Of a stretch of 64,000 nucleotides of DNA, positions 3,236-53,184 are shown piece by piece. The notes under the pieces are model-generated. The model did not search any database. It was not told the origin of the DNA and was given only the letters and a program-made list of their open reading frames with translations. The stretch's first letter is position 1; each line of letters begins with the position of its first letter. Source of the stretch: Chytridium lagenaria (taxonomy: Eukaryota; Chytridiomycota; Chytridiomycetes; Chytridiales; Chytridiaceae); assembly GCA_025449115.1 (NCBI GenBank), contig JAHLKC010000062.1, positions 1 to 64,000 of the forward strand, given 5' to 3'. The translations under genes were made by a program, and so were the position numbers.

Positions 3236-4186
3236 CTATCTGCTGGTAGCCCAATCCAATTCCGTTCCCACCACCCGTCTAGCCGCAGCCTCCACCTCCA
3301 TCAGTCCTAAGCGTGTCATCACGGCCTCCCGTCCCTCCAGCAACTTATCACGGTACGTCTGTTGGCCCTCCCCTGTTAGTTGCTGGATGTTGATCCTGGA
3401 GAACGGGAGCTTCCATATATTGCCAGGAAGCGTCAGCTGGAGTGTGAGTAACGAATGATCACTCCCCAGCGTCACATCCTCATGCACCACCAGATCCGGT
3501 TCCAGAAGAAGGGCGAGGGTGTTCATAAATACAAAGTCGGTAATCCCTCGTCCTTGATTATGATGTGAATGAGTTGTCCATTTCCCTCTAGATGGTTCTA
3601 ACCGCGTCCACTCAGCATCATCCAACCATGCTTCCATCCATGTCCTCCTCACCGCGTTTCCCACAATCACCGTATCCCCCGTCCTAGCTCCCATCCTCGC
3701 GTTGAAATCCCCTACCACCATTATTGGGGACCCCGCAAAGCGGTCCACAATGGAGTCCAGAAACGTATCAAAGTCGTCCATCATTGTATGTGCTCCCGCC
3801 TGGTTCATCAGCATTGGCGGTAGGTATCCCACCACCACGACCAGTACCCCCACTTTGTATGCTAACCATCTACCGCCATCATCCTTCTCAATCCCCTCTG
3901 TCCTAACCGTCTTTTCCCCAGCCGAACATACTAGAACCCCCCTCTCACCCCGGCGTCCAGTTCCCATTCCTCTAGCCAGCTTTGGTTTGACCGGTGCACA
4001 TCCGTTCATAATTATCTGTCCCATCGGTATCCCATCAGTTGGTGCCATCCAGGTCTCCACCATCATCATCACATCCAAGTCCTCCTCCTCACACGTAGCC
4101 ATCACCGCCTCTGCCTTCCCACTCAACCCTTGTACGTTTATAAATCCTAGTCGTAAAATACTATTGTCTGGGTCGGCATCAACCAT
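3236..4186 (-). pseudogene. U0 ORF2 fragment: APE-type endonuclease domain
   Basis: The chosen ATG (4186) gives a start MVDADPDN and precedes the first endonuclease motif LGFINVQGL. Visible APE/exonuclease-III-like motifs in order are VETWMAPTDG, VGDFNARMG, a GKWTTH...GITDFVF block and the catalytic-type GSDHSLLTL. These enzymes nick target DNA to prime reverse transcription of the element RNA. The frame ends at LDWATSR, where homology with U1 ORF2 also ends, so the reverse transcriptase and zinc-knuckle domains are absent. The ATG overlaps the ORF1 stop as ATGGTTGA. The domain itself is open and has all visible motifs. Confidence 0.85.
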
Positions 4187-6250
4187 CGATGGGTGTAGCG
4201 GCTTGTGCGGCATTTTCGGACATGACGGTGTCATCATCAAGAGCGGTAAACCTGTTTTTAAGTGGTAGGCGAGGGTCTTGGGCGGGAGAGGCGGGGCGTT
4301 TCAAGATCGTTTTTGGCTCCGCAGCCATTCTACCGTCCATCGTGGCTGCCTCAGAGGTCTTCGTGGTGGGTGCTGAGGGGCCAAATACCTGGTTACGAGA
4401 AAATGTGTTAGCAAAGGCATAAATTCCTTCTACCACGGAGGGAGGTAAGTCCCGAGTAACTGCATCCTTGGTGTGTTGTCCACCGCGAGAGTACAGGTTT
4501 CCAAGTCGTTTGACGCAATTGTCATGAGCAGATCGTTTCAACTCAGATGAAGATCGGCCTTGGTTGGATGGGATGTCGGGGATACCAAGGGGATCAAAGT
4601 CCAGCAACAAGCGTCCAGCTTTCCGTAAGGCCTCCTCGACCTCATCAACTTTGTCAGAGCTAACCAACAAATGAACCACGGACCCTCCAACAAAGCTCAT
4701 GTCGATGATGCCATCACCAATGCCAAGTGTCTTGAGTGCTTCACGGATAATGAGGAAGCGTTTAGGCCAGAGGGGGCCAGAAGGAACCGAGGCTTTGAAG
4801 TACACGTTTTCCAAGCGGGTGAGGGTACTACGTGGGAAGCTGCTGCGGAAGACAATACGAGCGGCATCAGAGGCCGTAGCAGAGTTTCGAGATATGTTGC
4901 CGGGCGGCGGCGGCAAAGCTACGTGGTTTATCAGAGGATGATGGCTGAGTAGACGTATCGAATTCTCAGAAAATATACGCGGCGGAGGGCCTCGAGGGGT
5001 GACGGTTGGATGAGGTCGAGATGTCTGAAGAAGACCGGATTCCTGCAAAGTGGCTATGACGTCTTGAACGAGTTGTTGACGGCGTTGGAGAGATTTACGG
5101 ACTTTCTTAGGTTCAGGGACCTCCGCCGAGTTCAACCTCTTCCATGTTCTGATGAGGATTCCTGTTCCCATCTCGTTGGTTTTGGGGCATGGGGAGCCGT
5201 GGGTGCGGAAGAGGTTAAGGCGATCTTGCTGCGTAACGAGGCAAGTTCTTGATCTTTGGATTCTAGCCTGGCGTTCAGGATTGCAACCTGGTCCGTCATT
5301 CGTTGGAGAGCCTTATGAAGATCGGCGTTCTGTTTGTCCATGCGTTCAGCCGTAACTCTGGCCTGTGATTCTCGCTGCTTAGCTTCCTCCCTGATTTCAT
5401 CGAGAGTTCGTTGCATCCTGCTCATCTCTTCAAGGTGTGGGTTGATGGATGGTGAGGACAGGTCGGTTGAGGTGTCCAACGAAGGTTTCTTGCGGGAGGC
5501 CATGTTGTTGTTGTCTTCTCGTTTGATGGGGTGCGAAATTGTCAAACTGTTTTGAGAAGAAAAGGAGAAAAGTGTGATGGAGGGATGGAGACGAGGACTC
5601 AAGTAATGGATATTGGTTAGTAGTAGCGGGGGTCCCTGCTTCTGTGAGCGGTTCGGCAGCTTCGCTGGTAGGTGTAGAGGAGCGGGTGGGTAGGAAAAAG
5701 GAAGAGATAGGACGGGTTTTGGTTGACTGATCAGACTGGGAGGCAGTAAAAACAAATGGTGAAGGTGGGTTGGACGTTTTGGTAAGGGACGGGGGGTTGG
5801 AGAGGATGTACGGCGGAGGGTAGAGTGCCGCAAAGAGGCCAAATCAGCGCGGTTGGCGAGAGAGAGGGATTGGTGAGCAGCTTCCAGCTGGGATCCGATA
5901 TCTATGTAGTCCGAATCCGTTTGTTTCTCCAGTAATCCAATGAACCTTGTGTATTACCACAGGTTTGCCGCCAGCTTTCCCGTCACAGCGCAGTGATAAG
6001 CGTCGGGTTCCAGTTCCAGTGGTAGCTCCAGAGATTCCTTTATTCGTCCACTGAGTGCCTTTTTGGTTACAATTGAAACAAACTAATCTGGTCTTATCTA
6101 GGTTGGCCCAACTTTGTTTTTCGAGAAACTGAAACTGGGTGATGGCCTCAAGCCGATCTACAGGTGTAGATGGCTGTGGAGCGATGGGAGCGGTGTACGG
6201 CTCGGGATGGGTGTTGATGGTGGGTTTCTTTCGTTGCTTTTGGCACTTTG
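4179..6250 (-). CDS. U0 ORF1: nucleic-acid-binding protein with zinc, coiled-coil and RNA-binding regions
   Basis: ORF1 of a LINE is expected to bind element RNA and form the retrotransposition particle. The 5' part (about 6120-5880) encodes a Cys-rich segment with CxxC and the WTNKG signature shared by all units. A conserved ATG near 5504 (MASRKKPS) starts a coiled-coil stretch (MSRMQRTLDEIREE, RLESKDQELASLRSK). The 3' part (5171-4179) has the signature seen in the other copies: IVFRSSFPRST, a GxSVVHLL segment and NCVKRLGNLYSRGGQ. The frames 5842-5132 and 5171-4179 are offset, so one frame change is needed. No ATG precedes the Cys-rich segment in that frame. Confidence 0.75.
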
Positions 6251-6280
6251 CTGGTTTTTTGCAGTGAAAGATTTTTTTTT

Positions 6281-6292
6281 CCCTAACCCTAA
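6281..6292. repeat. Two telomere repeats between U0 and U1
   Basis: CCCTAACCCTAA, flanked on the left by a T-run (5' end of U0 read on the minus strand) and on the right by GCGTAACAATG, the 3' end of U1. Confidence 0.9.
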
Positions 6293-6669
6293 GCGTAACA
6301 ATGAATATATTGTCCCTGACCCGTCAAACTTACGTAAGACTAAGGTGGGCTCTCAAACACATTACAGGCGTGAAAGAGATTAAGCTCGGCACTCCCAAAG
6401 AAAGAAGAAACGCGAAAAACGCGTAAGAAGAATCAACAACACGTACAAAAGATTAGAAGTACACGTGGAAAAGCAGGTAAAGCACGTAAAGAAAAACACA
6501 TAGAGAACCGACGCAGTAAAAGCACGTAATTAAACAGAGATGGGAAAGAGAGTAAGACCAGGGAAGAAAGGAAAGAATAGTAGAGGGAATGAAAACACAA
6601 GATAAAAGAAAATACTAAGTAGAGGAGAGAGAGAGAGAGGAAAAACATGAAAAGTAAGAAAGAAAAACC

Positions 6670-9600
6670 TCACAGAGGCTCTTCAGGAGCCAGTACCCAG
6701 TGTTCCTCTAGCGCCTCCCTCGTAAGTCGTCGTGTCCTTGCCGATATCGCCGCCGCAGTACCCCTTGCCTCATCCAAAATATTGTGAAGTTCTTGTTCTC
6801 GGGTATTGACGGAAGAGTCCCAAAATGGTCGTTGACCAAAACAGCACCATCGAATCCGCTCAACCGCCTCCACACACAGGCGAATTTCAACGCGTGATGA
6901 GTGGTGAAGATCAGCCTTTGGAAGAAAACGAAGTCGGGACAGTAAGGAGTCGATGATGGTGGAGCCAGGAGCGGTGGGAGAGAGGGTGGGAGGTGTGGGA
7001 TGGCAGCGGCTAGAAGAACAGTGGCGCCAGTGCATTCCGTCGTGTGTTCACGGCTTCCCAGGGCGTCATCGTCACAGTTGAGACATGGTTGGTGAAAGGA
7101 GACTCTGCCTAAAGCCCAGCAGACAAGGGCTCGGAATTGGTGGCGGTGGAGCAGAGAACCCGACGCGAGAAGACGGTGACGACGACCCCTGGGTAGCACC
7201 GGGAAGACCTGGGAGGTACGTGGTCCCTCGGCGAGGATGTGGTCAAGGATTGGCGGTGTGCAGCGTCGAAGAAGACCGGAGGGAGGCGTGGAGAGGAGTT
7301 AACTGGGCGACCGGCAGCTGGATGGTGAATAACAGGCCGAAGAAGATTAAAAACAATATTTTGTAAGTAAGGGAAGACAGAAGGCCATAAAGGATTGTGG
7401 TAACGATAAGCAATAAAGGTGGTGCGATAGGTAAGGGAAGAGGGAATGGGGTGTTGACGGGAGTGTCGATAAAGACGTGCGGTGAGGTTACCAGAATCGT
7501 TGCATTGATGAAGACGAAAAAAGAATGAAGCGTTAAGCGTGTGATTGCGAGAAGAAGAGGGACAATATTACAAAGAAGGTGAAGAGATGCAGAACTAGTG
7601 GATCGAGAGACAAAAAATAGAGCGGAGAGCAAGGTTTTGGGTGTTTTGAAGGGGAAGTAATTCGGAACGGGAGAGGGGTCGAAGGGCTAGTCCATATTCA
7701 AAAGGGGCGGATGAACATCTTGTAAAGAAAAAGTGAAAGGGAGGGCCTCATCCCCAGCCATTCATCCCTTTACTACGAAAGAAGTTGATGAGCACATGTG
7801 CTTTACGAACCCTCTTCTCCAGAGAAGCAGGATATCCACTCCAGTTGTATCCATCACCACCCTAAAAATCCAGCCGACCGCACCGGCCTTACAACGGTCC
7901 CCCCATCGTGACGGTGTCATTGCCTGTAATGACGAGTGCGATTTGTTTGGTGCGTATTCGATGCCAACCTCCATCCCCCCAGTCATAGCATTCTTGCGCG
8001 AGACGTTGAAGGCCGGGTAAACGTAGTTGAGAAGATCGTGGTGTCGTCAGCTAGAAGAAGAGAGTTAAGACGGCGACCGCCGCACATGATTGAGGGTACA
8101 TGTTTGAAGTGAAAGGAGACGGGATGGGAGGGGGTTGATGAAAAATAAAAACAAGGATGGAGCCAGACGTGTTCCCTGAAGAAGACCACGGCGTACAGGG
8201 ATGGGAGGTGATTTGCGGTTAAGAACAAGGAGAGAGGCAACATTATAATCAAATAAACATCGAAGTAAAGGAACAACAGAGTCATGAGTTTCAGTGTCGA
8301 AGGCATCACCAGACCAGGGAACTACCGGATGTGCCGGTAAGTTAGCAAAACGGGACCAAAGAAGTCGTCGGTCGACGGTATCGTAAGCTGCCTTGATGTC
8401 GAGGTACATGGTTTTGAGGTTGGGGTGATGTTGGAGTATTTCATGGAGGTTAAAGACTTGATCAAGACAAGAGCGTTGAGCACGGAAGCCTCCCTGTGCG
8501 ATATCGAGGTATGGGAGGATACGCTTGTCCATGACGGGTCGGAAAATGGCTTCAAACACCTTTCGAATGACTGAGATCAAAGAGATAGGGCGATAATTGA
8601 CGACCTCACGATTGCTGCCTTTGTTCTTGTAAACCAATGCCACGTTCGCAACCAGCCATGAGGATGGAACGCAGGTATACATCACCACCAAGTTGAAAAG
8701 AACTTGGAGGGGACCAAGAATTTCAGGGATAGCTTGCGAGAGCATTTCCCCGAAAATTTGATCATCTCCAGTTGCTTTACCCGACGGCGTGTCTCTGAGA
8801 ACCGTATGCATAGTGGCGTCGTTAATCCAGGGTGGGTATGGGAGCACTTGACGAGGGTTGCGGGGGTCGGTGGACCTGAGAAAGTCTTGGTTTGGAATAG
8901 CGGTGCCGGTGGGAAGGGCGCCAAAGGTGTTGTTGAAGTGATCTGCATATTCAGGGAGTTTGTCGGGGTCTAGAGCGCAGTGAGAGCGTTGGTATCGAGT
9001 AAGTTGACATGAAAGAACTTTGGCGGCGACCTGTGGTTTGGCGAGTATGGCGTCGGATCCATGGCGGTAAATACGGGTTTTATGAAGACGGGCTGCGGCA
9101 CGATAGATACGGTTGGCCTCAACACGGTAGCGCCATCGAATAGGTTTGAGTTGTGGAGGTGATTCGATGAAGTCTTGATGGCAGTATGCGCCATTTGGCG
9201 TAAGGCGGCGAGATGCGGTGTGTCAAAACCTGAATGCGGGGTGCCGCCTTTGAATTTGAATCTACCAACAGATTCTTCAGCGGCACGTAGAATCCAGCTA
9301 GAGACAGCTTCTGATGCCTCGTTCACATCATTCTGTCGTTCCTCCCACCCTACCAAAGTATTTGTAACCCTATAACCGGCAACTCTGACCTCCAACAGTC
9401 CCAGCCGCGTCATCAGATCGTCCCTACCCTCCCGAAGCTTATCCCTGAAGTGTATGAGTCCGTCGCCTTCCAGCTTATTGATGTTGATTCTTGAAAACGG
9501 CGGTTTCCAGAATGGCGTCGGTAAAGGTATGTCAACCGTGAGCAAGGAATGATCACTTCCCATCGTATGGTTCTCATGCACCACCAAGTCAGGTGCTAAT

Positions 9601-10270
9601 GGTAGTGCAGCCGTGTTTAAAAATACGAAATCCGTTATGCCGTGACCGTTTCTGGCGTGTGTGGTCCATTTTCCTCGTGAGGGCTCTAACCGTGTCCATT
9701 CTGGATCCTCCATCCAGTTTTGCATCCACATCTTACGATGATTATCCCCGACCGTATTCACATCCCCCGTCAATACCCCCATCCGTGCATTGAAATCACC
9801 CACGATCACTATGGGAGAAGCCGGGTGTTGCAGGCTAATCCCTGCCCTAAAGGCGTCAAAACCCTCCAGCATCGTCCTCGCTGCCGCACCATTACCCGAC
9901 ATAGGCGGTAAATATCCAACAACAATGATTAACAGTCCCACTTTCACCGCCGTCCATTTACCCCCTGCATCAATCCCCAGCACTTCCGCACCAACCTCCT
10001 TCTCTCCAGACGACGTCACTAGTACCCCCCATTGTCCTTTCGTCCCGTTGCTTTCCCATCCACATGCCTGGTGCGAGGTGGAGCCGTACCGTTGACCAGA
10101 ACGCGTTTCAGAGGGATCCCGTCCGTTGGTGACAACCAGGTTTCGACAACGGCCATGAGGTCAATTTCTAATGAGGTACATATGTTAGTAAGTAGTTCGG
10201 CTTTACCTGTTAATCCTTGGGCATTCCAGAAGCCAAGCCGAAGTATGTGATGGTCACCGTCGTCAGACAT
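6670..10270 (-). CDS. U1 ORF2: endonuclease-reverse transcriptase
   Basis: Starts at the ATG overlapping the ORF1 stop (ATGTCTGA). The endonuclease has LGFWNAQGL, VVETWLSPTDG, VGDFNARMG, GITDFVFLN and GSDHSLLTV. Reverse transcriptase motifs follow: NYRPISLISVIRKVFE, the motif-A region YLDIKAAYDTVDRR, LLQGTRLAPSLF and the active-site box LLADDTTI, with Leu where Tyr or Phe is usual. The C-terminal half contains a CX2C...HX3C knuckle (CLNCDDDALGSREHTTEC) and ends at HWVLAPEEPL. The frame is broken into pieces (10270-8970, 8847-8065, about 8020-7250, 7199-6670); whether this is decay or one-base sequence error cannot be settled here. The protein would nick telomere DNA and copy the element onto it. 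Confidence 0.85.
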
Positions 10271-12296
10271 TAACACGAGTGTTAACGTCTGCGGCACCAT
10301 GTGATACATCCATTTCATCCTCAGTGTCGGATAAATGTTCAAACCGATTGGAGTTGGGTGGTTGGTCGGTGGCTGGATCCTCAACCCTGCGTCTGGCAAC
10401 TTTGCGGGGGTAGGCAAAAGGTCGGTCCGTGTCTATAGAAGGGTCAGCATAGCGGAAAACTAAAGCGGTCTCTCGGCGTTGTCGTTCTTCTGCGTACAGG
10501 CGTGCCTGTTCACGCACCTCTCCAGCAAAGGTGTCATCTAAGCCTTCCAAGCAAGCCTGCTTGATCTGTTGCCCTCCACGGCTGTACAGGGCTCCCAATC
10601 TCTTAGCGCAATTGAGTCGGCCTTCCTTTTCTCGTTCAGCGTGGGATTTATTGCTGGCGACATTGAGCTTTGGGACTTCGAGGGGGTCAAAGGAGGGGAG
10701 AAATACCCCTTTGTCGGTCAATTTCTTCTCGATGAAGGCGGCTTTGCTGGCGTCACAAAGGAGGTGGACGACAGATTGACCGATAAAGCTCATTTCGAGT
10801 ACCCCAGAGTCGATGCCGATGGAGATAAGGGCCTTACGGATCATGAGATAACGTTTGGGACCACGTTGTGCGTATCCACGCATATAAATGCTAGTGACGC
10901 CAGGAACTTCGCTGCGTGGATAAGTGCTCCTAAAGACAACTCGGGCAGCATGGTCTGGCGTGGCGTTACCTCGAGCAATTTGTCGGACTGCCGATGCAAA
11001 ACTGATAGGACCAGTGGGAGGACGGTGAGCATTGACATCAAAATGTTCTGAGAACGTCTTCATTGGCGGTCCGGCGGTTTGGAGCGGGATGTTGTTGGGG
11101 TCGATGAAAGCCTTCGTCTTTCATAGCAAGAAGAAGTTCGGCTACAACTGTCTTGGTGAGGTCGGCCTTGAATGCAGCAAGCTTGGTGACTGAGAGATCT
11201 TCAAAGGACTTCCCCATCCTCCGTTTCCATGGCAGTCGGTTTCTCAATGGTCGTATTATGGGAGGTCTTTTCTTGAAGCCGTTGGAGTGGGGATGACATT
11301 GTTGGAGCTGGTGAGGCGGCGGATCTCGTCGTCTTTGTCATCTAGTCGCTTCTGGAGGCGGGAGTTGTCTTCTCTAAGAGCTCGAACTTCCAGTACAAGG
11401 TCCTCCATCCTGGCATCCATCCTGGAAATGATGGCGGTGTAATACTTCATGTTCTCTTCGATGGATGCCGGGAGAGGGCTAGAGGTTGACGGAGCGGTGG
11501 TCGGTGTTTTCTTACCTAAAGGTGTTGACATGTTTGCTGAAGTTAAATTTCCTATAGGGGTTGTCAGTAGGTCACGTGATTGGAAAGAAAAAGCGGAAAG
11601 TCTGGATTGAGTTGGTGGGTGCTTGGTTCCGTCAAGGAGATGGGCGGTGTTGGAGGAGGTGGGTGAAGGAATGGCACTTGCTGCTGAGGTCTGGGATGAG
11701 GACAGGATGGAGAGTGGTGTGGGATAGGGAGGTGGTTGGGTTATGTCAGGGGACGGAGGTGGAAGAGGTGATGCGGTGGGAGGTGCGAGGTGTGCAGGGA
11801 TGGTTGAATGGGGAATGTTGATGGAGGAGGTGTCGGTTTGGTCTATTTGTCGTTTCTTGGGTTGTCGTAGGGTGGCTGACGCCGATCTGGAGATGACTTC
11901 CAATTGCTGATGGGCTGTAGCGATTTGGTGACCGATGTCCAGGTAGTCGGAATCTTGTTGTTGTTGCAAGATGGATACGAGTCGTCCAGTGCTTCCGCAG
12001 GGTTTGGTGAGTGTGCCGTCACAGCGTATCGACAGACGGCGGGCTCCAGTGGCGGCGTGGCTTCCAGATGGGCCTTTGTTTGTCCACTTAACTGCGGTTT
12101 GATCACAAATAGGACAGATCAGCCGAGCCTTATCCAAGTTCTTCCAGCTTAGTCTCTCAAGCTGATGGAACTGGTTGACGGCAGCTGACAGTGGGGATGA
12201 GGGATCAGGGTCGGGATGATGGGAGATGGGGGTTGGGGGCTTCGTCGATGTTTTGGTTTTCAGTTCTTTTGGCACTTTGGATGATTTTTTGTGCAA
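10263..12296 (-). CDS. U1 ORF1: zinc-finger, coiled-coil and RNA-binding-like protein
   Basis: The 5' portion encodes ICPICDQTAVKWTNKGPSG followed by a second Cys pair (CDGTLTKPCG), a putative zinc-binding module. A proline-rich linker follows, then an ATG at about 11530 (NMSTPLGKK) and a coiled coil (MDARMEDLVLEVRAL, LQKRLDDKDDEIRRL). The distal part (11063-10263) carries RVVFRSTYPRSEVPG, SFIGQSVVHLL and NCAKRLGALYSRGGQQ. The most 5' open frame opens with a TTG codon and has no ATG before the zinc module. The first part runs open to 11256, the next short piece is 11247-11038, and the last is 11063-10263, so two frame changes are needed. The stop overlaps the ORF2 ATG. Confidence 0.8.
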
Positions 12297-12310
12297 AAGA
12301 GTTTTTTTTT

Positions 12311-12322
12311 CCCTAACCCTAA
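12311..12322. repeat. Two telomere repeats between U1 and U2
   Basis: CCCTAACCCTAA followed by GCGTAACAAAG, the 3' end of U2. Confidence 0.9.
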
Positions 12323-12701
12323 GCGTAACAAAGAATATATTGTCCCTGACCCGTCAAACGTGATGTAAGACTAAGGTGGGCTCTCGATAACAAAAATACA
12401 GGCGTTAAGAACATATATCAGCACTCCGACATGGTGTAAAAGCGCGATAACGCGTAAAAAGAGACATAAAACGCGTAAAACGACATAAAGACGCGTACCA
12501 AACATTAAGAAGAAGAAAGCATAAAGAGAAAGAAAGAGAAAGAACCGACGCGGCAACCACACCGTAAGTAAAACATGAAACAAGAATAAAGGTAAGACGA
12601 AGCTAGAAAGGAAGCAAGAATATAAGCATAAACTCAGGAAAGAAAAGAGAAAATAGGAAAGGTAAGAAAGGAAAGAGAAAGAAACAAGAGAAAATAAAGC
12701 C

Positions 12702-15700: not shown

Positions 15701-16304
15701 GTCGTCCATTTCCCCTGTGAAGGCTCCAACCGCGTCCACTCTGCTGAGTCCATCCAAGCATTCATCCACTGGCGCTAACACCATCCCTGTAGTGCCAGTA
15801 TCTCCGTGAGCAACCCCATCCTCGCATTAAAATCCCCACCACCACAATAGGTGATGTGGGGCATTGTAACTAATCCTTCTCTAAAAGCATCAAACCTTCC
15901 AACATTGCCTCGCGTTCACGACATTCCCTCCCATCGGTGGTAAATACCCACAATGATCACGAGAACCCCAACTTTAACTGCCATCCACTTCCTCCAGTAT
16001 CCACCCTAACACTTCTGTCCGAGGTTCTCTTTCACCAGGAGCGGCAAGAAGAACTCCCCATTGGCCCTTTCGGCCTGTTGCGGCTCCATCAACGTGTCGA
16101 GGACGAGGAGGAGCGGTGCCATTAATAACCACACGTCGAAGAGGTATGCCGTCGGTAGGGACAACCATGTTTCAGCTACCGCGATGAGGTCGATATCTAA
16201 GGAAAGACAAGTGTCAGTAAGAAGATCTGCTTTGCCACTTAATCCTTGAGCGTTCCAGAATCCTAGTCGTAAAATATGTTGATCGTTGTCTCAGGCATGA
16301 TCAT
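12702..16304 (-). CDS. U2 ORF2: endonuclease-reverse transcriptase
   Basis: The endonuclease region (16304-15520) is recognisable but chopped into short frames. The reverse transcriptase is open over 15052-14027 with NYRPISLISVIRKLFE, YLDIKAAYDTVDRR, and LLQGTRLAPSLFLLF. The active-site box (LFLADDTTI) lies in the next piece (14145-13810). The C-terminal 392 codons (13880-12702) include the thumb-like region, the knuckle CLNCDDDTPGNREHTVAC and the conserved end HWVLAPEEPL. The spacing of the domains matches U1, so this is the best-preserved copy from the thumb region onward. Confidence 0.85.
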
Positions 16305-18272: not shown

Positions 18273-18303
18273 TTTGGATGATTTTTGTGCAAAAGAGTTT
18301 TTT

Positions 18304-18315
18304 CCCTAACCCTAA
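18304..18315. repeat. Two telomere repeats between U2 and U3
   Basis: CCCTAACCCTAA followed by GCGTAACAATG, the 3' end of U3. Confidence 0.9.
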
Positions 18316-25785: not shown

Positions 25786-26698
25786 TGTGAGATTATTGGA
25801 TAACCTCACCGAGAGGCATGAATGCGTCGCTTATATAGACGTCGTGCCATTATCCTTATTTCCTTATTCCCGTTCCATTCTTTTCCCTCTCGGGGGTTTT
25901 CATAGTTTTTCCCCATAATACGAGAGAGATTTTTTATAGAAGAGGGCGGTCGACGTGGTATGCCAACTTATGAATGCTACCACGTTGGTCGAGATGCTTT
26001 GTTGTTATTTGATTCCCCTTTATGTATTGTTTTATTATTTGTAGAAAGGAATAGATTTACGTACACCTCTTCAGTCCTGGATTAAGCCTCTGCACATTCA
26101 GGCCAGCCCCTGGTGGGCTGTGCTATCTCTTTCCCATTATATTCACTATCGTTGTTGAGTGTACTAGCGGGTGCTCTGGTTAGCACGCCCCGAGGAGACT
26201 GCGATCCGAACCAAACATTGTCTAAGAAGGTATGAGCCATGGGAATACGCCTCAAGGCATGATTCCTTCGAAGGTTTGGTCAGTATAACTACCTCTGTTC
26301 TATTTCTCGATGGCTATGGACAGGCTATCTAGTTGCCTGTGAGTGGGAGAGCGGCATGAGCAGGGCCCTAGGTAGATGAGATTGAGATAGAACATGTTAA
26401 AACGCTTATTGCGGCGAATAGAGGCCTGGTACACTCCTTGGAGCGGGATGGAATCCCTTCCGTAGACCCCTTTCCCTAGTCACTTAGATCTAGTCTCTAG
26501 GCATTTCCCTTCTTTTTTCCCTTATTATTAACGATTAGAACGAAACCACAGCAACTTAAATCCCCGCTGTCACTAAAGGCAGAATAGGGCTTGACTCTTG
26601 ATCTAGGAGTATTCCTAGACTCTAGTCTCGTCACCATTATGTGGTTCTCTACCTCTGTATGCCGGGGCTTAGCAGAGGGGCCATAGAGAGAATTCACA
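25786..26698. repeat. Right LTR (913 bp)
   Basis: Same sequence as the left LTR but about 25 bp shorter, with scattered one-base gaps, for example in homopolymers near 25917, 25933 and 26180. Substitutions are fewer than gaps. Confidence 0.88.
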
Positions 26699-27095
26699 CT
26701 TCCAACATCGTCCTGGCCGCACCGCCATTACCTGCCATGGGTGCAGTACCCCACTATAATACCAAGATTCCCACCTTGACAGCCGTCCATTTCCCCCCAG
26801 TATCCACACCCAGCACCTCCAGCCCTATCTCCTTTTCCCCAGGTGACATCAACAGTACTCCCCATTGACCTTTGCGGCCTGTGGCCTTCCCGTCGACGTG
26901 TCTGTTGCGAGGCGGAGCGGTACCATTAACCACCACGCGTTTGAGGGGGATACCGTCGGTTGGCGCGAGCCATGTTTCAACGATAGCCATGAGGTCGATG
27001 TCTAATGAGTACATGTATTAGTAAGTAAATCAGCCTTACCTGTTAATCCTTGGGCATTCCAGAATCCAAGCCGTAGTATATGGTGCTCATCGACG

Positions 27096-29075
27096 TCAGA
27101 CATTAACACGTTTGTTAATATCCGAATCTACATTGGCATCATCCATGTCTTCATCATCGTCTGATAGTTGTGCAAAGCGGTTGGCGTTGGCGGTGTTGCT
27201 GGTGGTGGGCCGGCGACTGGTCGTTTGATGATTTTTTCGGGTGTGCGAAAAGTCTTTCTTCGGTGGGTGAGGGCTCAGTATGGCGGAAAAATGAGTCGGC
27301 ATCACGGCGTTGGCGTTCCTCGGCATACAGACGTGCTTGCTCTTTGACTTCATCGGCGAATGTTTCGTCAAGACCTTCCAGACAGGCCTTTTTAATCTGT
27401 TGTCCTCCTCTGCTGTATAGCGCTCCCAGTCTTTTGGCACAATTAATTCGACCCTCCTTTTCTCGTTCCTCAAGAGATTTGCTGCTGGCGACGTTAATTT
27501 TGGAACTTCGAGAGGGTCAAATGCAGGGATGAGACGCCTTTGTCGGTGAGTTTCTTCTCTATGGCGGCGGCTTTACTGAATCACACATGAGATGAACAAC
27601 TGATTGACCAATGAAGCTCATCTCCATTACGCCGGAATCGATGCCAATAGACAGAAGGGCATTTCTGACCATAAGGTAACGTTTGGGCCTCTTTGGACGT
27701 ATCCCCGCATGTAGACTCGTAACCCCAGGAACTTCACTACGAGGATAGGTGCTCCTAAAGACGACCCTGGCGGCGTGGTCAGGAGTGGCGTTTCCTCTGG
27801 CAATTTGGCGGACAGCGCGGCGAAGCTGATGGACCAGCGGTTGGCGTGGGGCGTTCACATCAAAGTTCACCAAAAAGGTAGGTGGTGGAGGTCTGCGGGC
27901 GTATGCCTGGATGTTGGTCGAGGAATCCTTCTTCTTCATGGCAACTAGGAGTTCCGCAACCACTGTTTTGGTAAGGTCGGCCTTAAAGGCCGCAAGCTTT
28001 GTAGCAGAGAGATCTTCAATGACTTCACCGTCTTCGCGTTCCATGCCATTATCTTCAACTGGGGCTGGGGGGTGGGGTCTTAACAGGTGCGGGTTGGTTG
28101 GTGGGTCCAGGGCTTGGCGTTGAGGCGATGGATTTCGGCATCTTTGTCGTCAAGCGTTTTTGAAGACGGGCGTTATCCTCCTCAGCGCTTTAACTTCGAG
28201 TAGGAGATCTTCCATTCTGGTATCCATTCTAGAAATGATGTTAATATATGTTGCATACTTTCCTCAATGGATGCCGGTGTGAACTGGGTGTGGAGACATG
28301 TTGGACGTTGTCTTCTTTGTCGCGGAGTTGACATGTTTGCGTCAATTAAATTTCCGGTTGGAATTGTCGAGAGATACGTGACTGGAAAGAAAAAGCTGAA
28401 AGCCTGGATTGAATCGTCGAGTGCTTGGTGTCGGGGAGTGGGGATGGGGTGTGGGTTGGAAGAGACGTTGGGGCGAGGGTACTAGGGTGATCGAGGGTGT
28501 ATGCAGGGTGGAGAGTGAACTGGTAGGTGGAGAAGATTGGAGGATGTTGGTAAGCGGGGGTGGGATGGATGGATTTAAGGGAAGTGAGAAGTGTGCAGGG
28601 ATAGTTTGGGAAGAGATGGTGGATGGAGGGGTACAAGGAGGTTCGATGTTACGTTTCTTGGGTTGACGAAGAGTAGCTGAGGCGGTCCTTGAGATGACGT
28701 CGAGTTTTGATGAGCCGCAGCAATTTGTTGTCCAATGTCGAGGTAGTCCGAGTCCTTTTGTTGCTGCAGGATGTTAACAAGGCGTCCAGTGCTTCACAGG
28801 GTCTGGTAAGTGTGCCGTCGCAGCGTATCGAGAGGCGTCGGGTTCCAGTGGCTGCGTGACTTCCAGATGGCCCTTTGTTTGTCCACTTGACGGATTGTTG
28901 ACCACAGATAGGCAGATCAGCCGGGTCTTATCCAAGTTCTTCCAGCTTAGTTTCTCAAGCTGGTGAAACTGGTTGACGGCAGCTGACAATGGGGATGAGT
29001 GATCAGGGTCTGGATGATGGGAGATGGGGTTGATGGCTTCGTCGATATTTGGTTTTCAGTTCTTTTGGCACTTTG
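27096..29075 (-). pseudogene. U3 ORF1, broken
   Basis: The zinc module is recognisable near 28930-28790 (WTNKG-type region, then CDGTL..PC) but shifts frame. The RNA-binding-like region is split into 28044-27559 (VVFRSTYPRSEVPG, SFIGQSVVHLM) and 27473-27096. Compared with U1 ORF1, most breaks are single missing bases, for example GGCAGATC for GGACAGATC near 28910. It overlaps the ORF2 start by 8 nt like U1. Confidence 0.75.
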
Positions 29076-29106
29076 GATGATTTTTGTGCAAAAGAGTTTT
29101 TTTTTT

Positions 29107-29117
29107 CCCTAACCTAA
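29107..29117. repeat. Telomere repeats between U3 and U4, one base short
   Basis: CCCTAACCTAA, one C fewer than the other junctions. This lies in the stretch that shows many one-base gaps. Confidence 0.8.
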
Positions 29118-29438
29118 GTTTATCAAGGTTTATTGTCCCTGACCGTCAAACGTGATGTAAGACTAAGGTGGGCTCTCGATAACAACAATACAAGCGTTAA
29201 AACAAACAGAGCACTCCGACAGGGTGTAAAAGCGCGATAGCGCGTAAAAAAAGAAACAGAAAACGCGTAAAACAATACAAAGACGCGTAACAAAAACATG
29301 GAAAGAAAGAAGCAGGAGTGAAAAGAAAGAACCGACGCGGCAACCACACCGTAAGTAAAGCATAAATGAGAATAAAAGAGATAAGAGAAACCATGAGAAG
29401 GAAGAAAGGAAAGAGAAAGAAACAAGAGAAATAAAGCC

Positions 29439-32400
29439 TCAAAGAGGCTCTTCAGGAGCCAGCACCAGTGTTCTCCAGCGTCTCCCTCGTAAGTCGTCGT
29501 GTTCTTGCCGAAATTGCGGCTGCCGTACCTCTTGCCTCGTCGAGAATGTGCTGGAGTTCCTGCTCGCGCGTATTCACCGAGGAATCCCAAAAAGGCGTTG
29601 TCCGAAGCAACACCACCTGATACGCTCAATAGCCTCCACACACATGCGAATTTCAACGCGAGTGCTATGGTGCGATCAACGTTGGGTGGGAAGCGGATGC
29701 AGGATAACAGCGAATCGATGATGGTGGATCCTGGTGCTCGATGGATTGATGGTCGAAGATGTGGGAAGGCTACGGCGAGAAGAACGTTGGCTCCAGTACA
29801 GGCGACAGTGTGTTCTCGATTACCGGGGGTGTGTCGTCACAGTTGAGGCAAGGTTGATGTGAGAAACCTGCCAGCATCCAGCATACTAAGCTCTGAACTG
29901 ATGTCGGTGAAGGGTGGAGCCGGACGCGATGAGATGATGACGTCTTCCTCGGGCAAGCACAGGAAAGACTTGAGCTGTTCGAGGTCCAAGTGGCGGAGAT
30001 CCAGAAGCGCTCGTGTATGGGCATTATCGAAAACGTAGGAGGGAGGCGGAGAGAGGAACTTGCTGAGCGACCGGCAACTGGAGTAGTAATAATAAGACGT
30101 AAAAGGTTAAAAACAAGATTTTGAAGGTAAGGAAGAACATAGGCCATAATGGGTTGCGATAGCGGTAGGTAGGAGATGAAGTACAGCGAACTAAAGAAGA
30201 GGGTAAAATGTGTTGAAGAGAATGACGATAAATCCGCGCGGCTAAATTGCCGGAGTCATTATTTTGATGGATACGGAAGAAAAAAGAGGAGTTTAGGTGT
30301 GGTTGCGCGTCGATAGAGGAACAATGTTGCACAGTAAATGAAGGGAAGCAATACTGGTAGATCGAGCTACAGAAAAAATGGAGCGGAGTGCTAGGTTCTG
30401 AGTGTTTTGAAGGGGAGGATTTCAGCAGAAGAGAGATCGGAGTGCGAGCCATACTCTACAAGGGGTCGAACAAACATTTTATAAAGAAGGAGGGAGAGGG
30501 AAGGGCGCCATCCCCACGCATTCATACCCTTACTACGAAAAAAGTGAATAAGCAGATTGGCTTTTTTAACGCGCTTCTCCATAGAAGCCGCGATATCAAC
30601 CCCCATCGGCGTCATCACCATCCCAAGAAACACCGCCGAGTTCACTGGTGCAATCACGGTCCCCCCCATCGTCACCGTATTATTCCCCGTCACCACCAGA
30701 GCAGATTTTGTCGGTGCATACTCAATCCCAACCTCGCGACCCCATTCGTAACACGCCGCCGCAAGTCGTTGGACCCCATCCAGAGTTGTCGACAGGATTG
30801 TTGTATCTCAAAAAAGAGAGTTAATGCGGCAACCTCCACATGATATGGTGGGTACATCAGGGAGAGAGCGTAAACGGGAGGAAAGTGGGTTAATGAACAA
30901 CAAAAACAATGATGGTGCTAATCGGGTCCCTTGGAGCAAACCCCGACGTACAGGAATAGGAGGAGACTTGGAACCAAGAACAAGAAGGTAAGCAAGGTTA
31001 TAATCAAAAAGACAACGAAGGAGGGGTACAACGGAGGTGAGAGTCTCGGTGTCAAACGCGTCGCCAGCCCAGGGGACACGAGGGAGGGCCGGTAAGTGGT
31101 TAAATTGAGACCAGAGGAGACGCCGGTCCACCGTGTCATATGCCGCTTTGATGTCCAGATACATGGTCTTGATGCCGGGGTTGTGTTGGATGATCTCGTG
31201 AAGGTTAAAGACTTGATCGAGGCATGAGCGTTGAGCACGGAACCCCCCTTGGGCCACATCGAGATAAGGTAATATCCGCTTGTCCACCACAGGCCTGAAG
31301 ACGGCTTCAAAGAGCTTCCGAACCACTGATATGAGTGAGATGGGACGGTAGTTGACGATATCTCTGTTACTCCCCTTATTCTTGAAGACTAATGCCACGT
31401 TCGCAACCAACCACGAGGATGGAACGCAGTTGTATATAACAACCAGAGTAAAGAGAGCTTTGAGGGGGTTCCGTACCTCAGGAATGGCCCGAGAAAGCAT
31501 CTCCCCAAAGATTTGGTCTTCTCCAGTAGCTTTGCCGGCAGGGGTTTCACGAATAACCATATCCAGAGCAGCATCGTCAAGCCAAGTGGGTGCGGTAAGG
31601 ACTTTTCGGGGTACACGGGGGTCGGTATCGTCAAGAAAACCTTGGTCCGGTAAGGCCGTGCCGGTTGGAAGGGCTCCAAATGTCGATTGAAAATGGGCGC
31701 ATAATCTTCAAGGCGGGAGGGGTCGAGAGCACAGTGGCGCGTTGTTGTCTTGCAAGTTGGCACGAGATGACTTTAGCCGCGACTTGGGGTTGAGAAAGCA
31801 TCCCGTCAGATCTGTAGCGGAACACACGCGTCTTGTGGAGGCGAACAGCAGCTCTGTAAAGGCGGTTAGATTCGTACGGTACCTCCAACGAAGTGGTTTC
31901 AAGTCGGGAGGAGAGGTTAAGAATGCGTTGTGGGCCTCTTGGGTCAGCTGTCGCAGTGCTTTGAGGTGCGGTGTATCAAAGCCAGGGTGTGGAGAGCCCC
32001 TTTGAATTTGAAGCGGCCGACAGAATCTTCAGCAGCTTTAATGAGCCATTGAACGACTGTATCCGATGCTGCATCCACCGCGAGTTGTCTCGTTTCCCAT
32101 GGGATCAAGTTATCCGTGGCTCTTCTCTCTCAGCGGCTTCACCAAGATCATCCAGTATCGTCATCACGTTGGCGTGAGTGTCTCGTAGTTTCCCCGTAAA
32201 GTGTTCTAAGTCCTCGCCTATCAATTTATGTGCATTAATCCGAGAGAAGGTCGGTTTCCAGAAGTCCGTCGGCAATGGGATATCACCGTGAGGAGAGAGT
32301 GATCGCTTCCCATGGTGATATCCTCGTGTATGACTAGGTCTGGTGCCAGATGTAATGCCATGGTGTTCAGGAACACCAGATCGGTAATGCCGTTGCCGTT

Positions 32401-33015
32401 CCTCGCGTGTGTCGTCCATTTCCCCCGTGAAGGCTCCAACCGCGTCCACTCAGCATTTTCCATCCATTCCCTCATCCATCCCCGTCTAACCAGATCCCCC
32501 GTTGTGCCATTATCACCAGTAAGTGCACCCATCCTCGCGTTAAAATCCCCAACCACAACAATCGGTGCTGCAGGGTGTTGTGCTTGAATTCCCCCAGAAA
32601 TGCATCGAAACCCGCCAACATTGCAGCCACATTAACACCATCTCCTCCTATTGGCGGTAGGTAGCCGATGACTAAAACCAGAATCCCTATCTTCACCGCA
32701 GACCATTTTCCCCAGCATCCACTCCTAGCACCTCTATTCTTAGGTCTCTATCCCCCGGGGAGGCCAGAAGTACCCCCCATTGTCCCTTCCGTCCGGTGGC
32801 GGTGCCATCAACGTGTCGAGGTCGAGCAGGTGCGGTCCATTAACAATGACACGGCGAATTGGGACACCGTCGGTAGGTGATAACCAAGTCTCGGCAATGG
32901 CGATGAGGTCGATATCTAAAGAAAGGCAAGTGTCAGTAAGAGTCGGCTTTTCCACTTAGTCCTTGGCGTTCCAGAATCCCAGCCGTAAGATATGATGTTC
33001 GTTGTCCTCAGACAT
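29439..33015 (-). pseudogene. U4 ORF2: endonuclease-reverse transcriptase, broken
   Basis: The start overlaps the ORF1 stop (ATGTCTGA). Endonuclease motifs are present in pieces: ETWLSPTDG near 32880, VGDFNARMG near 32540 and GSDHSLLTV near 32300. Reverse transcriptase is open over 31560-30808 with NYRPISLISVVRKLFE, YLDIKAAYDTVDRR and LLQGTRLAPSLFLLF. The thumb-like region is 30696-30391. The C-terminal domain is recognisable (QPCLNCDD and the HWVLAPEEPL end region) but heavily frame-shifted. Confidence 0.82.
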
Positions 33016-35020
33016 TAACACGTTTGTTAATGCCTGACTCGACTTCATTCGCCATGACTTCATCATCGTCGCTCTCTAAGGTGTGAAAGCGGTTGGAGGA
33101 GGTTGGTGTGGTCTTTGGGGTGTCGTCAGCGTACCGTTTCTTCATGATACTGCGGGGAACTGCTAGGGGTCGGTTTTTTCGACTGTTGGAGTGGGAACGC
33201 CGAAAACTCTAACGGCATCACGCTGGGCTCTTTCGTCAGAGAAGATTTTTGCTTGTGCCGAATTTCGACTATCATTTCTTCGTCTATACCCTCAAGGCAT
33301 GCCGTTTTGATCTGCTGCCCACCTCGAGCATACAATCCACTAAGGCGTTTAATGCAGTTACGCCGGCCTTCTTGCGCTCGTTCTTCTTTGGATTTACTGC
33401 TGGAGACGACGAGTTCAGGGACCTCGAGGGGGTCAAAATTTGGGAGGAACACACCCTTCTTGGTAAGTTGGTTCTGAATGAAGGCGGCCTTGGAGGAATC
33501 ACAGAGGAGGTGTACCACAGATTTGCCGATAAAAGACATATCAGCACACCAGAGTCGATGCCGAGAGTGAAAAGAGCGTTGCGAATAATTGTGTAGCGAA
33601 TGGTCCAGGTTCGGCGTAACCTCTCATGTACAGGTTGGTTATTCCAGGAATATTGCTTCTTGGGTACGTGCTGCGGAAGACCATACGGGCGGCATGTTCG
33701 GGGGTTGCATCTCCTCTGGCGATTTGACGGGCTGCTGCAGCAAAACTGAGATGTCCAGGGGGTGGCCGAGGAGTATTAACGTCGAAGTTTTCCGAAAAGA
33801 TCTTGGGGACGATACGGCGGGGGCCATGTAGGGTGGGGATGACTTGTCAAGTCCAGCTTCTTTCATGGCAGCCAGGAGTTCTTTAACCACATCTTTAGTC
33901 AAGTCGGCTTTGAAGGCGGCAAGCTTGGTGGCAGAGACGGCTTCGAAAACCTCTCCTTCCTCTTCAACCATGTCAACATCGGCTGCGGTGGTAGGAGCGG
34001 GGGGATGGGGCCTTGATGGGAACAGCTGGAGGAGGAGAGGGTTGGTGGGTAATGCGGTGGATTTCGGCATCTTTGTCGTCGAGACGGCGTTGGAGTCGAG
34101 CATTGTCATCCCGGAGTCCTTTCATCTCCTCAAGGAGAGTATCCAAGCGGTAGTCAAACGAGAGATCTGTTCAAGAAGGTTAGTTTGGTCAGTCTGAGTG
34201 GATGGTGTGGAGGTCGATGATGATGAGGAGGTCGCCGTTTTCTTGAAGGATGAGGACATTGTGTCTGATGTGTCTATGTTAGTCGGAATTGTCAATGAGT
34301 CACGTGATCTATGGTAGAAAAAGCGGCAAGACGGTTTGAGATGGTGAGATGTGGGCGGTGTGATGAGGGTTGAAGTGAGATGGTGGTTGGGTAGCGAGTG
34401 GGTGAGGGGTGTTCAAGAGTAGTAGTGTGAAGGGGAGGTGTAGGCGATGTAAGAGCTGTGTGAGGTATAGTGACGGCGTTGTGTGGTGTGGAAATGACGG
34501 AGGATGGTGACGGCGGGAAGTGTGAAAGGATGGATGGGGATGAAGGTGAGAGGGTAGAACTTTTAGGTTGCGTTAAGGGAGTGGAGGATCGTTTTTTGGG
34601 TTGTCGTAAGGCAGCGGCTTCCGATCGGGTTAACACTTCAAGATGTTGGTGTGCCGAGGCAATCTGTTGGCCGATATCGAGATAATCCGAGTCTTGCTGT
34701 TTGAGGAGGATGTTGACGAGTCGTCCAGAGTGGCCGCAAGGGGTTCCAGTAGGGCTACCGTCACAGCGGATGGAGAAGCGACGAGTTCCTGTTGCAGATG
34801 GGCTTCCAGATGGCCTTTATTGGTCCACTTTACTCCAGATTGACGACAGATGGGACAGATAAGGCGGTCTTTGTCCAAAAGCTTCCAGCTTTCTTTCTCA
34901 AGAAGCTGGAGACGTTGAGCGGCGTTTAGAGGAGGAGTGAGCGGTGTTTCAGATGTCTGGGTGGGGCGATGGGTGTTTGGTCTTCAGCGATGGTTTGGTT
35001 TTCAGTTCTTTTGGCACTTT
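33008..35020 (-). pseudogene. U4 ORF1, broken
   Basis: The zinc module is ICPICRQSGVKWTNKG near 34850-34810, followed by the linker and an ATG near 34260 (MSSSFKK). The coiled-coil region lies near 34170-34060. The RNA-binding-like part is recognisable over 34000-33126 (TKLAAFKADLTK, SFIGKSVVHLL, NCIKRLSGLYARGGQQ) in several frames. No ATG precedes the zinc module in its frame. Confidence 0.75.
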
Positions 35021-35063
35021 GGATGATTTTTGTGCAAAAGAGTTTTTTTTTTTTTTTTTTTTT

Positions 35064-35075
35064 CCCTAACCCTAA
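35064..35075. repeat. Two telomere repeats between U4 and U5
   Basis: CCCTAACCCTAA followed by GCGTTTCAAAGG, the 3' end of U5. Confidence 0.9.
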
Positions 35076-37124
35076 GCGTTTCAAAGGTTTTATTATTATC
35101 CCTGACCCGCGCACCCGAGGGTGAACTAAGGTGGGCTTTCGACAATCAGAACATGAGTAAGAAAACATTAAGTGAAGGAGAATAAACACCATAAAGAAAT
35201 AAGTAAAATAAAAAGAAAAGGAAATAAGTCACTGCAACCATCTCTCGACGCGTCATAGAACAAAACGAACGGAAGAAAAGAGGAAAAACATGAGAAGAAA
35301 AGGGAATAGGACCGTAAAACCGAGTGTGGTACATGACAGAGAGTAAAAGGAACCAACAACAAAGCAGGGAATGAAAGGAGAGAAAGGAGGAAAAAGAACC
35401 TCAAAGAGGCTCCTCAGGTGCCAGTACCCAGTGGTCTTCCATTGCCTCCCTCGTAAGCCGCCGAGTCCTTGCCGATACTTGAGGTCCTGCTCCACGCGTC
35501 TCTTCCAGGATTGCTTGAAGTTCTTGATCGCCAGAGTTTGCCGATGTATCCCAGAAAGGTCTTTGGCCGAAGCAACACCAACGAACACGTTCAATCGCCT
35601 CCACACACACGCGTATCTCGGCGCGTGTGGGGTGATGACGATCAACGTTAGGCAGAAATCGGAGCCGGATAAGGAGAGAGTCGATAATAGTGGAGCCAGG
35701 CGCGTCAGGAACCATAGGTAGAAGCCGTGGGTAGGTATTGGCGATAATAGCATGGGATCCAGAGCACTCCACAGTATGGTCACGGCTGCCTGGGGTCTCT
35801 CCGTCACAGTTGAGGCAGGGTTTGTGATTAGCGACACGTCCTAAAGCCCAGACAATGAGGGCGCGCATTTGATGTCGGTGAAGGAGAGACCCAGCTTGAA
35901 GCAAGGGATGCCGGCGACCCCGTGGGAGGACGGTGAAGGTTTGAGATGTGCGGGGTCCCGAGGCACGCATTGAGGTTAAGGCTTGAACGTGAGCGGTCTT
36001 GAAGAAGGCTGGAGGGAGGCAGGCAGAGGACTGTAAGGGACGGCCGCAACTGGAGTAAGTATAACAGGACGAAGAAGGTTAAACACTAAATTTTGTAAAA
36101 GGGGACGGACATGAGGCCAAAGAGGATTGGAATAACGGTATGTAGACAATGAGGTGCGATAAACAAGAGAAGAAGGTTTAGGGTGTTGGAGGGAGTGGCG
36201 GTAAATACGTGCGGCAAGGTGTCCAGCATCGTTATTTTGATGAATACGGAAGAAAAAGGACGCGTTGAGTGTATGGTTGCGAGAGGACATAGGGACTACA
36301 TTAGATAAAAGATGAAGAGAGGCGATACTAGTAGTGCGAGAAACTGAATAAATGGAACGGAGGGCATTATTTTGGGCGTATTGAAGGGGGGAGAGTTCGG
36401 AGGGTGTAAGGGGTCGCAAAGCTAACCCATATTCAATAAGGGGTCGAATAAACATCTGATAGAGAAGAATAGATAAAGAAGGTCTCCATCCCCAGCCATT
36501 CATACCCTTACTTCGGAGGAAATGAATCATTGTCCCAGCCTTCTTAACGCGTTTTTCCAGTGAAGCCACTAAGTCCACCCCCGCCACCGTCATCACCATC
36601 CCCAAGAAAACTGCCGATGCCTTTGGAGTAATCACAACTCCACCCATTATCACGTTATCTTCCCCTCCATCAACAAAAACCGATTTAGCCGGCGCATATT
36701 CAATCCCCACTTCACGACCTCACTCGTAACAAGATGTCGCCAATTGCTGTAGGCCTTCCACCGTATGAGACATTATTGTCGTGTCGTCAGCTAGAAGTAA
36801 AGAGTTAATTCTAAGGCCACCAAGTGTAACTGATGGCACATGCGGCAGTAATCGAAGACGCCGTGGGAGAGGGTCAATAAAAAAAAGAAATAAAGGAGGG
36901 GCAAGTCGGGTGCCTTGCAGTAACCCGCGACGAACAAGAATTGGAGGAGATTTAAAACCGAGCACAAGGAGGTGGGCAACGTTAAAATCAAAAAGGCAAC
37001 GTAGGAGGGGAACAACAGATAATCGGGTTTCACGCTCAAAAGCCGGTCCAGACCATGGGACGAGAGGGTGAGCAGGAAGAGCAGAAAACCGTGACCAGAG
37101 AAGGCGGCGATCAACCGTGTCATA
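35076..37124 (-). mobile_element. LINE unit U5, 5'-truncated, gene-proximal
   Basis: Only the 3' 2.05 kb is present. It begins inside reverse transcriptase motif A and continues to the ORF2 end and 3' UTR. The 5' truncation is typical of incomplete target-primed reverse transcription. It is preceded on the minus strand by CTTAGGGTTAGG and then non-element DNA. Its C-terminal sequence (VANHKPCLNC) differs from subfamilies A and B. Confidence 0.9.
35401..37124 (-). pseudogene. U5 ORF2 fragment: reverse transcriptase C-terminal part
   Basis: Begins at YDTVDRRLLW, continues through LLQGTRLAPPLFLFF and the active-site box LLADDTTI, and then the thumb-like region (36710-35976). The C-terminal knuckle is CLNCDGETPGSRDHTVEC and the end is HWVLAPEEPL at 35401. 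Endonuclease and the first RT motifs are missing. One in-frame stop (near 36720) follows QLATSCYE, and the frame then changes near 35980. It is non-functional by truncation alone. Confidence 0.85.
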
Positions 37125-37136
37125 CCTAACCCTAAG
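37125..37136. repeat. Two telomere repeats at the inner edge of the array
   Basis: CCTAACCCTAAG between truncated U5 and unrelated DNA (TCGAACCTCC). On the minus strand this reads chromosome interior, then TTAGGG repeats, then the truncated LINE. Confidence 0.88.
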
Positions 37137-38567: not shown

Positions 38568-38830
38568 TGGGGGAGGAGTTGTGTAAGTGAGTAAGTAACT
38601 GCATATAAGATGCGATCAAGTGTCCTTACTTGTTGTAGTAATAAACTGTTGTCAATAAAGTCTCTTGTCAAATTCTTTATTATTTATGTTTGTGTCGATC
38701 TTGGTATCCACTCTAATAGTGGGTACCAAATCTTTGTATTTTCAAAATATTTTCTAAGTCCCCCACATAAAAAGGGGAGACAGAGATTTTGTCGTCAAGA
38801 CAAGAGGTAAAAGCGAAAACCCTTTTGAAC

Positions 38831-53177: not shown

Positions 53178-53184
53178 TAATGTT

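Follow-up and report, generated by a model that had tools for sequence, protein, structure and literature searches.

The first 64 kb of contig C62 (214,405 bp) of the chytrid fungus Chytridium lagenaria, here called the window, carry a head-to-tail array of long interspersed nuclear elements (LINEs) with about two telomere repeats at each junction. The target of these elements is the two-repeat motif rather than the telomere tract. We consider it highly probable that the family is a site-specific LINE of the apurinic/apyrimidinic endonuclease (APE) type, about 6.0 kb in length, with the two-repeat telomere motif N|TTAGGGTTAGG(G) as its landing site.

A BLAST search of the window with one unit together with protein mapping gave six minus-strand copies between 3236 and 37124. 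The first-pass annotation of the window had described six non-long-terminal-repeat (non-LTR) copies in the same orientation, and this array is real. Three copies are full-length and a fourth would be so but for an LTR element that splits it; of the other two, one is 3'-truncated and one 5'-truncated. Copy 1 (3236–6280) is cut short inside open reading frame 2 (ORF2) and its reverse transcriptase (RT) and 3' end are missing; its low-coordinate limit was set where the ORF2 similarity stops. It comprises, on the minus strand, the zinc-motif (5828–6134), the coiled-coil (4692–5072) and the ORF2 endonuclease (3245–4213). Copies 2 (6293–12310) and 3 (12323–18303) are full-length, copy 4 (18316–29106) is split in the endonuclease region by the LTR element, copy 5 (29118–35063) is full-length with a 21-nt A-run at its 5' end, and copy 6 (35076–37124) retains its 3' end but begins only within the RT. 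The junctions hold the target (TTAGGG)2, likewise on the minus strand, at 6281–6292, 12311–12322, 18304–18315 and 35064–35075, and an 11-nt form one base shorter, TTAGGTTAGGG, at 29107–29117. A further one-base-shorter target copy, TTAGGGTTAGG, is situated at 37125–37135 (minus strand) on the 5' side of the truncated copy 6, where the adjoining flank does not belong to this LINE.

The sequence CCCTAACCCTAA matches exactly four times in the 64 kb, at 6281, 12311, 18304 and 35064, each time at a junction, compared with a mean of 0.01 in 100 shuffles of the window. The earlier statement that every junction holds about two repeats is thus exact for four of the five internal junctions, the fifth being one base short. 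The junction-to-junction spacings are 6030, 5993, 10802 and 5958 bp; a unit length of 5.95–6.02 kb, as first given, is about right for the three uninterrupted units but not for the LTR-split unit of 10802 bp. The repeats are separated from the 5' end of the following element by an A-run, whose length varies (9, 9, 6, 10 and 21).

The same junctions were found throughout the genome, which comprises 41.9 Mb in 356 contigs. A 98-bp probe from the 3' end, with the repeats excluded, matched 22 places on 11 contigs. The 3' end is followed by exactly TTAGGGTTAGGG (12 nt) in 19 of the 22 and by an 11-nt variant in the other three, and by a longer tract in none. With the variant at 29 kb of C62 read as TTAGG-TTAGGG, the 3' boundary lies directly before TTAGGG in all 22 cases. 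A 5' probe matched 34 places, and the sequence was read at 30 of them: 26 are preceded by TTAGGGTTAGGG and three by the one-base-shorter form (C62 at 29 kb, C24 at 348 kb, and C69). The sequence TTAGGGTTAGGGAAAA has 29 matches in the genome, its reversed control none. In 246,423 bases examined, we detected 33 tracts with two or more exact repeats next to an element; each has exactly two repeats and none has three or more. This count sees exact repeats only, tracts with a mismatch being invisible to it, and the short loci L091–L103 lie outside its sample; of the 37 tract rows, four were left out as telomere tracts of C9 and C129 that a loose pattern had picked up.

TTAGGG is the telomere repeat of C. 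lagenaria, and ordinary TTAGGG telomere tracts are present according to genome pattern counts. About 255 tracts in the genome have at least two repeats and 108 have at least three, which leaves by subtraction about 147 with exactly two. Many of the latter no doubt sit inside degenerate telomere tracts, and at least 33 flank the LINEs described here. In this tract counting the reversed 12-mer control had 25 genome matches.

We considered two alternatives for the origin of the junction repeats. First, they could be target DNA; second, they could belong to the element, whose RNA would end in (UUAGGG)2 that is copied along, with the A-run as poly(A) tail. The second alternative would account for the repeats after all 22 3' ends and for the A-run that comes next at most element–element junctions. 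However, A-runs are present before all five element 5' ends that follow non-element DNA (C293, C172, C114, C69 and C49) and absent at the four LINE 3' ends that face non-element DNA (C3, C40, C174 and C278). The A-run is a feature of the 5' junction and not a poly(A) tail; the latter possibility was ruled out, as A-runs accompany 5' ends and not 3' ends. Moreover, the motif is also present 5' of the 5'-truncated copy 6.

Further evidence comes from target sites that occur both empty and filled. Site A is a 106-bp subtelomeric repeat which starts with TTAGGGTTAGGCGC, an 11-nt, one-base-short variant of the target, and ends with TATAAC. It is found at 40 places, often near contig ends, and 13 of these are full-length. 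Six of the full copies are empty (two on C61, C3 at 601.0 kb, C39, C51 and C33) and have the ordinary upstream repeat. The other seven are filled; in all of them the 3' end of an element falls on the same base. Two subfamilies of this LINE are found in C40 and C3 at 599.9 kb, whereas related 3' ends are found in C331, C27, C155, C9 and C152. In 13 Site A copies (C3:599818, C40:17401, C61 and others; L091–L100) the two-repeat motif was observed at the outer edge, with an orientation opposite to that of the telomere. The 106-bp repeat at the C3 copy was also considered as a 107-bp target duplication, but this idea was dropped since the repeat is bounded by identical ends at other loci too. Site B, TATTTTTA|TTAGGGTTAGGG|TGG, also written TATTTTTA|TTAGGGTTAGGGTGG, is empty at 0.86 kb of C253 and filled on C278 and C174; it was found at five places, two of them uninformative (one with N upstream, one a partial match). 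Since Sites A and B hold two repeats already when empty, the repeats at the 3' side pre-exist and are target DNA, as had been proposed. Filled and empty Site A copies moreover share the 11-nt variant TTAGGGTTAGGCGC, which also argues against repeats contributed by the element RNA, and we regard such an origin as very improbable.

The first-pass annotation had named the telomere itself as the target. This could not be maintained: none of the 33 element-adjacent tracts has three or more repeats, and the empty sites are isolated two-repeat motifs. A long telomere as target is ruled out for the copies seen, with 33 of 33 tracts of exactly two repeats. Alternatively, the LINEs could enter real telomere tracts anywhere, and breakage and slippage could later trim the internal tracts to about two repeats, as suggested for unstable interstitial telomeres of the blast fungus. 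In the available part of the MoTeR study the stable interstitial tracts comprise at most (TTAGGG)2 (PMC7367193), which is in line with trimming. So is the right end of C129 (L049), where a LINE broken inside the RT is joined on its 3' side to degenerate TTAGGG repeats; this telomere-capped copy looks like a healed chromosome end. Trimming should, however, give varied lengths, such as those in the same part of the MoTeR study (stable AGGG up to two repeats; overall half a repeat to >20; PMC7367193), whereas the 33 tracts detected here all have two repeats and most of the remaining junctions are one base off. In addition, the empty Sites A and B are already two-repeat sites. We consider trimming an unlikely source of the spacers.

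Empty sites carry one motif and elements carry one per side. The motif is present on the 5' side at C293, C172, C114 and position 37125 of C62, and consistently on the 3' side; both ends of copy 6 are flanked by it, and the 5' flank of this copy is not LINE sequence. The simplest reading is a target-site duplication (TSD) of 11–12 bp, pieced together from separate 5' and 3' flanks. We propose that the predicted endonuclease makes a nick in the CCCTAA strand where the motif begins and that the 3' end of the RNA, which would end in C and for which no poly(A) was seen, is reverse-transcribed from the nick. The other strand would be cut 11–12 nt downstream, giving the 11–12 bp duplication. Every insertion would then be bordered by intact landing sites at either end, which later copies of any lineage could enter. 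Since insertion would duplicate the landing site, arrays would grow head to tail with constant spacers, as those of Drosophila R1 do.

For R1, the part of the literature source at hand describes tandem arrays spaced by a 14-bp TSD that result from insertion into that TSD; the TSD is about 14 bp, 11 or 13 bp in one lineage, and non-templated nucleotides occur at some 5' junctions (PMC2718515). As far as this part goes, the likeness to R1 would concern the mechanism only: both form head-to-tail arrays with a constant short spacer, and the chytrid spacers and separate flanks fit 11–12 bp. The R1 target is the 28S rDNA of arthropod hosts, whereas the chytrid LINE uses a telomere motif in a fungus. 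The flanks that were read for the chytrid LINE consist of telomere motif, other elements, and subtelomeric or other DNA, as judged with no comparison to rRNA models.

Genome-wide, 23 junction intervals on nine contigs were measured, leaving out the C9 interval and the C9/C129 rows with their loosely matched telomere tracts. Nineteen intervals have a length of 5.87–6.07 kb, three of 2.0–2.25 kb, and one, the LTR-split unit, of 10.8 kb. The short units were observed at C24:348158–350420 (L090, L082) and as 2.0–2.2 kb intervals on C120 and C293. The C24 unit of 2.25 kb retains the LINE 5' end over 461 aligned bp as well as the final 43 bp. The frames listed for it are ORF1-like, with no ORF2; from its sequence it is probably a non-autonomous companion.

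Instead of repeated insertion, tandem duplication or break-induced replication of one unit could have produced the arrays. The constant unit length and spacers would fit, and such an origin was proposed for one MoTeR end with identical spacers in the accessible part of that study (PMC7367193). RT segments were compared for 29 out of 116 matched rows. Copies on the same contig differ by 15–37% in their RT DNA (15 pairs, maximum identity 0.85) in contrast to identities of up to 0.999 between contigs, and full LINEs alternate with units of 2.0–2.25 kb. Only one of the 29 RT copies has its nearest relative on its own contig, compared with a shuffled mean of 1.09, many contigs being single-copy. 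Local tandem duplication is ruled out by this relatedness, and we give multiplication of one unit hardly any credence as the source of the arrays. Copy 2 and its twin at 20.0–26.0 kb of C120 are 98.2% identical over a 6.1-kb alignment, and their neighbours differ on both sides. Both have the same two-repeat motif at both ends, with A9 in one and G+A10 in the other at the 5' junction. Such a pattern would be expected from precise, recent insertion into existing junctions.

The 3' side of the arrays points toward the nearest contig end on C62, C120, C24, C172, C69, C29, C30 and C114, although contig ends are not proven chromosome ends. It points away in three of the 11 arrays on larger contigs (C40, C3 and C174). 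The earlier view that successive insertions stacked outward is not borne out; a usable site would be expected on either side of every insertion. The Site A repeat underlies the arrays on C40 and C3, and its motif has the orientation opposite to that of the telomere, on the plus strand at left ends and on the minus strand at right ends. Orientation thus seems to follow the motif.

We find it rather probable that a guild of long-diverged APE-LINE lineages and their ORF2-less derivatives shares a 12-bp two-repeat pad, and that each insertion duplicates this pad, so that the guild creates its own interstitial-telomere niche beside the true telomere tract in R1-like arrays. Several observations weigh against the proposed site-specific insertion with target duplication. 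One of the 30 5' ends, on C49, is preceded by a weak look-alike and not by the motif, and the 5' flank on C69, TTAGGGTAGGGG, differs from the plain motif further 3' on the same contig. We found no single insertion whose outer flanks on the two sides both correspond to the same empty allele. Trimming of longer tracts down to two repeats is conceivable in principle. Many RT relatives entered the count by RT similarity and not by their ends; a few of these lie far from contig ends (C39 at 80 kb and a fragment at 76 kb of C24), and relatives of 33–38% identity lie outside the target check. Six near-identical pairs were compared, and C62/C120 is the one whose two ends were read closely. For C24/C120 and C40/C120 the alignment extends about 130–320 bp into the neighbours, and the remaining three pairs were covered only in part; ectopic exchange between ends may account for these five pairs, which speak neither for nor against precise recent insertion. 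Finally, the assembly has many small gaps inside these repeats (75 gap openings vs 32 mismatches in the copy 2/C120 pair), and therefore single broken frames prove little.

The coding regions agree with an APE-type LINE. By eye, a zinc-finger-like motif and a coiled coil were recognized in the ORF1 region and a CCHC-like motif near the end of ORF2, where it follows first the endonuclease and then the RT. In the C40 copy ORF2 stays open over 1077 residues, with PF03372 at 26–252 and PF00078 at 568–792, and similarity to the ORF2 end carries on in another frame. An N-terminal APE-like endonuclease and the RT are thus combined within one ORF2, and copy 6 shows the constant 3' end with 5' truncation. 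These domains and the junctions bear out the initial proposal of APE-endonuclease LINEs on a telomere-repeat motif in a fungus. The family profile matches LINE-1 ORF2p across both domains (E=2.6e-46) and the R1Bm endonuclease structure weakly (E=0.0021); the endonuclease alone gave no match at E<=1 against the PDB sequences. In an alignment of 35 sequences G169-D170-N172, S250-D251-H252 and A752-D753-D754 are nearly invariant, and we take these to be the catalytic residues. An RNase H domain was reported neither for the C40 ORF2 nor in the precomputed domains of 120 listed relatives, and no relative was found in viral contigs. Partial proteins at 39–40% identity occur in another chytrid, Chytriomyces confervae.

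Ten RT segments without stops were compared pairwise for nonsynonymous (dN) and synonymous (dS) changes. Apart from one young pair, dN is about 0.09–0.46, dS ranges from 1.4 to saturated, and dN/dS is 0.04–0.14 where computable. The young pair L032–L038 has a dN of 0.006, a dS of 0.011 and a dN/dS of 0.58 on very few changes. Since dN/dS is 0.04–0.14 in the unsaturated pairs, neutral decay is ruled out as the source of the 30% divergence, which therefore reflects old lineages under selection. One such lineage (C24 at 345 kb, C331 and C30) has an RT protein 49–68% identical to that of copy 2 in the window. We also searched the 3' tails for secondary structures. Of 32 distinct tails, trimmed to 28 (22 distinct), 17 were used for a consensus fold; this gave seven pairs, none changed on both sides, with an energy near zero, and a conserved fold is not supported. 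Single-sequence folds showed a hairpin in each of five tails, which is weak evidence.

By phylogeny, the RTs of the silkworm elements TRAS and SART belong to the R1 clade. According to the accessible parts of two sources, TRAS and SART resemble the chytrid LINE in their APE-like endonuclease, telomere-repeat target and combination of ORF1 and ORF2, but insert inside the repeat, between C and T of CCTAA or T and A of TTAGG, and SART1 requires at least three repeats and uses poly(A) (PMC7265360, PMC4700185). The chytrid boundary, in contrast, lies before the first T in 22 of 22 cases and not within the repeat; the empty Sites A and B have only two repeats, and the 3' junction is without poly(A). 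MoTeR1/2 and FoTeR share with the chytrid LINE a fungal host, a telomere association and TTAGGG at both ends; head-to-tail arrays are described for MoTeR, whose short companion MoTeR2 recalls the chytrid units of 2.0–2.25 kb (PMC7367193, PMC12857005, as far as available). The same portions of these sources give MoTeR/FoTeR a C-terminal restriction-enzyme-like (REL) endonuclease and place them in a clade with CRE, SLACS and Cnl1, whereas the chytrid ORF2 has an APE domain, no search having been aimed at a REL motif. They also have MoTeR 5' ends facing the chromosome end and MoTeR spacers of half a repeat to >20 (PMC7367193, PMC12857005), while in the chytrid eight of 11 arrays have their 3' side toward the nearest contig end and the spacers are constant. 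HeT-A and TART of Drosophila are likewise LINEs at chromosome ends, but these retrotranspose directly onto the chromosome terminus of a fly that lacks telomerase (PMC7265360), whereas in the chytrid TTAGGG tracts exist and insertion is into an internal motif.

No APE-type telomere-motif LINE in fungi and no LINE of C. lagenaria was found in the literature searched, most subscription papers being outside reach. Within the portions of the literature consulted, the chytrid family would represent the mechanism known for R1 on a kind of target not seen reported for R1, in a fungus and with an APE enzyme. It would join telomere-motif targeting with self-stacking driven by the TSD, which we have not seen combined there, and would add an APE-type case to the fungi, whose telomere LINEs found in print, so far as these sources extend, are of the REL type. 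A rule is suggested by which a target regenerates when target length equals duplication length, and by which a LINE may occupy chromosome ends outside the telomere tract. Many short interstitial telomere motifs would thereby be placed near chromosome ends, where breakage and healing can occur.

The LTR-retrotransposon-like insertion in copy 4 comprises about 4.8 kb (21875–26698, no strand assigned). Its LTRs of about 0.9 kb, at about 21875–22812 and 25786–26698, have TG..CA ends, and a CTTC target duplication flanks the insertion at 21871–21874 and 26699–26702 (limits by eye). The longest stop-to-stop ORF wholly within the insertion has 94 aa.

Beyond the low-coordinate limit of copy 1 there are 22-bp and 150-bp tandem repeats, and tandem satellites of about 150 and 286 bp extend over 62–2640 of the window, distal to the array and past its 3'-truncated outermost copy. 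At the other side, an ORF of 448 aa without Pfam match (37269–38615) adjoins the innermost copy. A stretch 64.5% identical to this ORF region precedes the first C69 element (L087, upstream flank); therefore the C62 and C69 arrays abut one gene or repeat family. A COP9 signalosome subunit 4-like protein is encoded at 53145–54359 of the window; over the aligned 81% of its length it shows 100% identity to a match from C. lagenaria. In the genome as a whole (TTAGGG)4 has 357 plus-strand and no minus-strand matches; long tracts are thus confined to contig ends of one kind, which is a peculiarity of this assembly.

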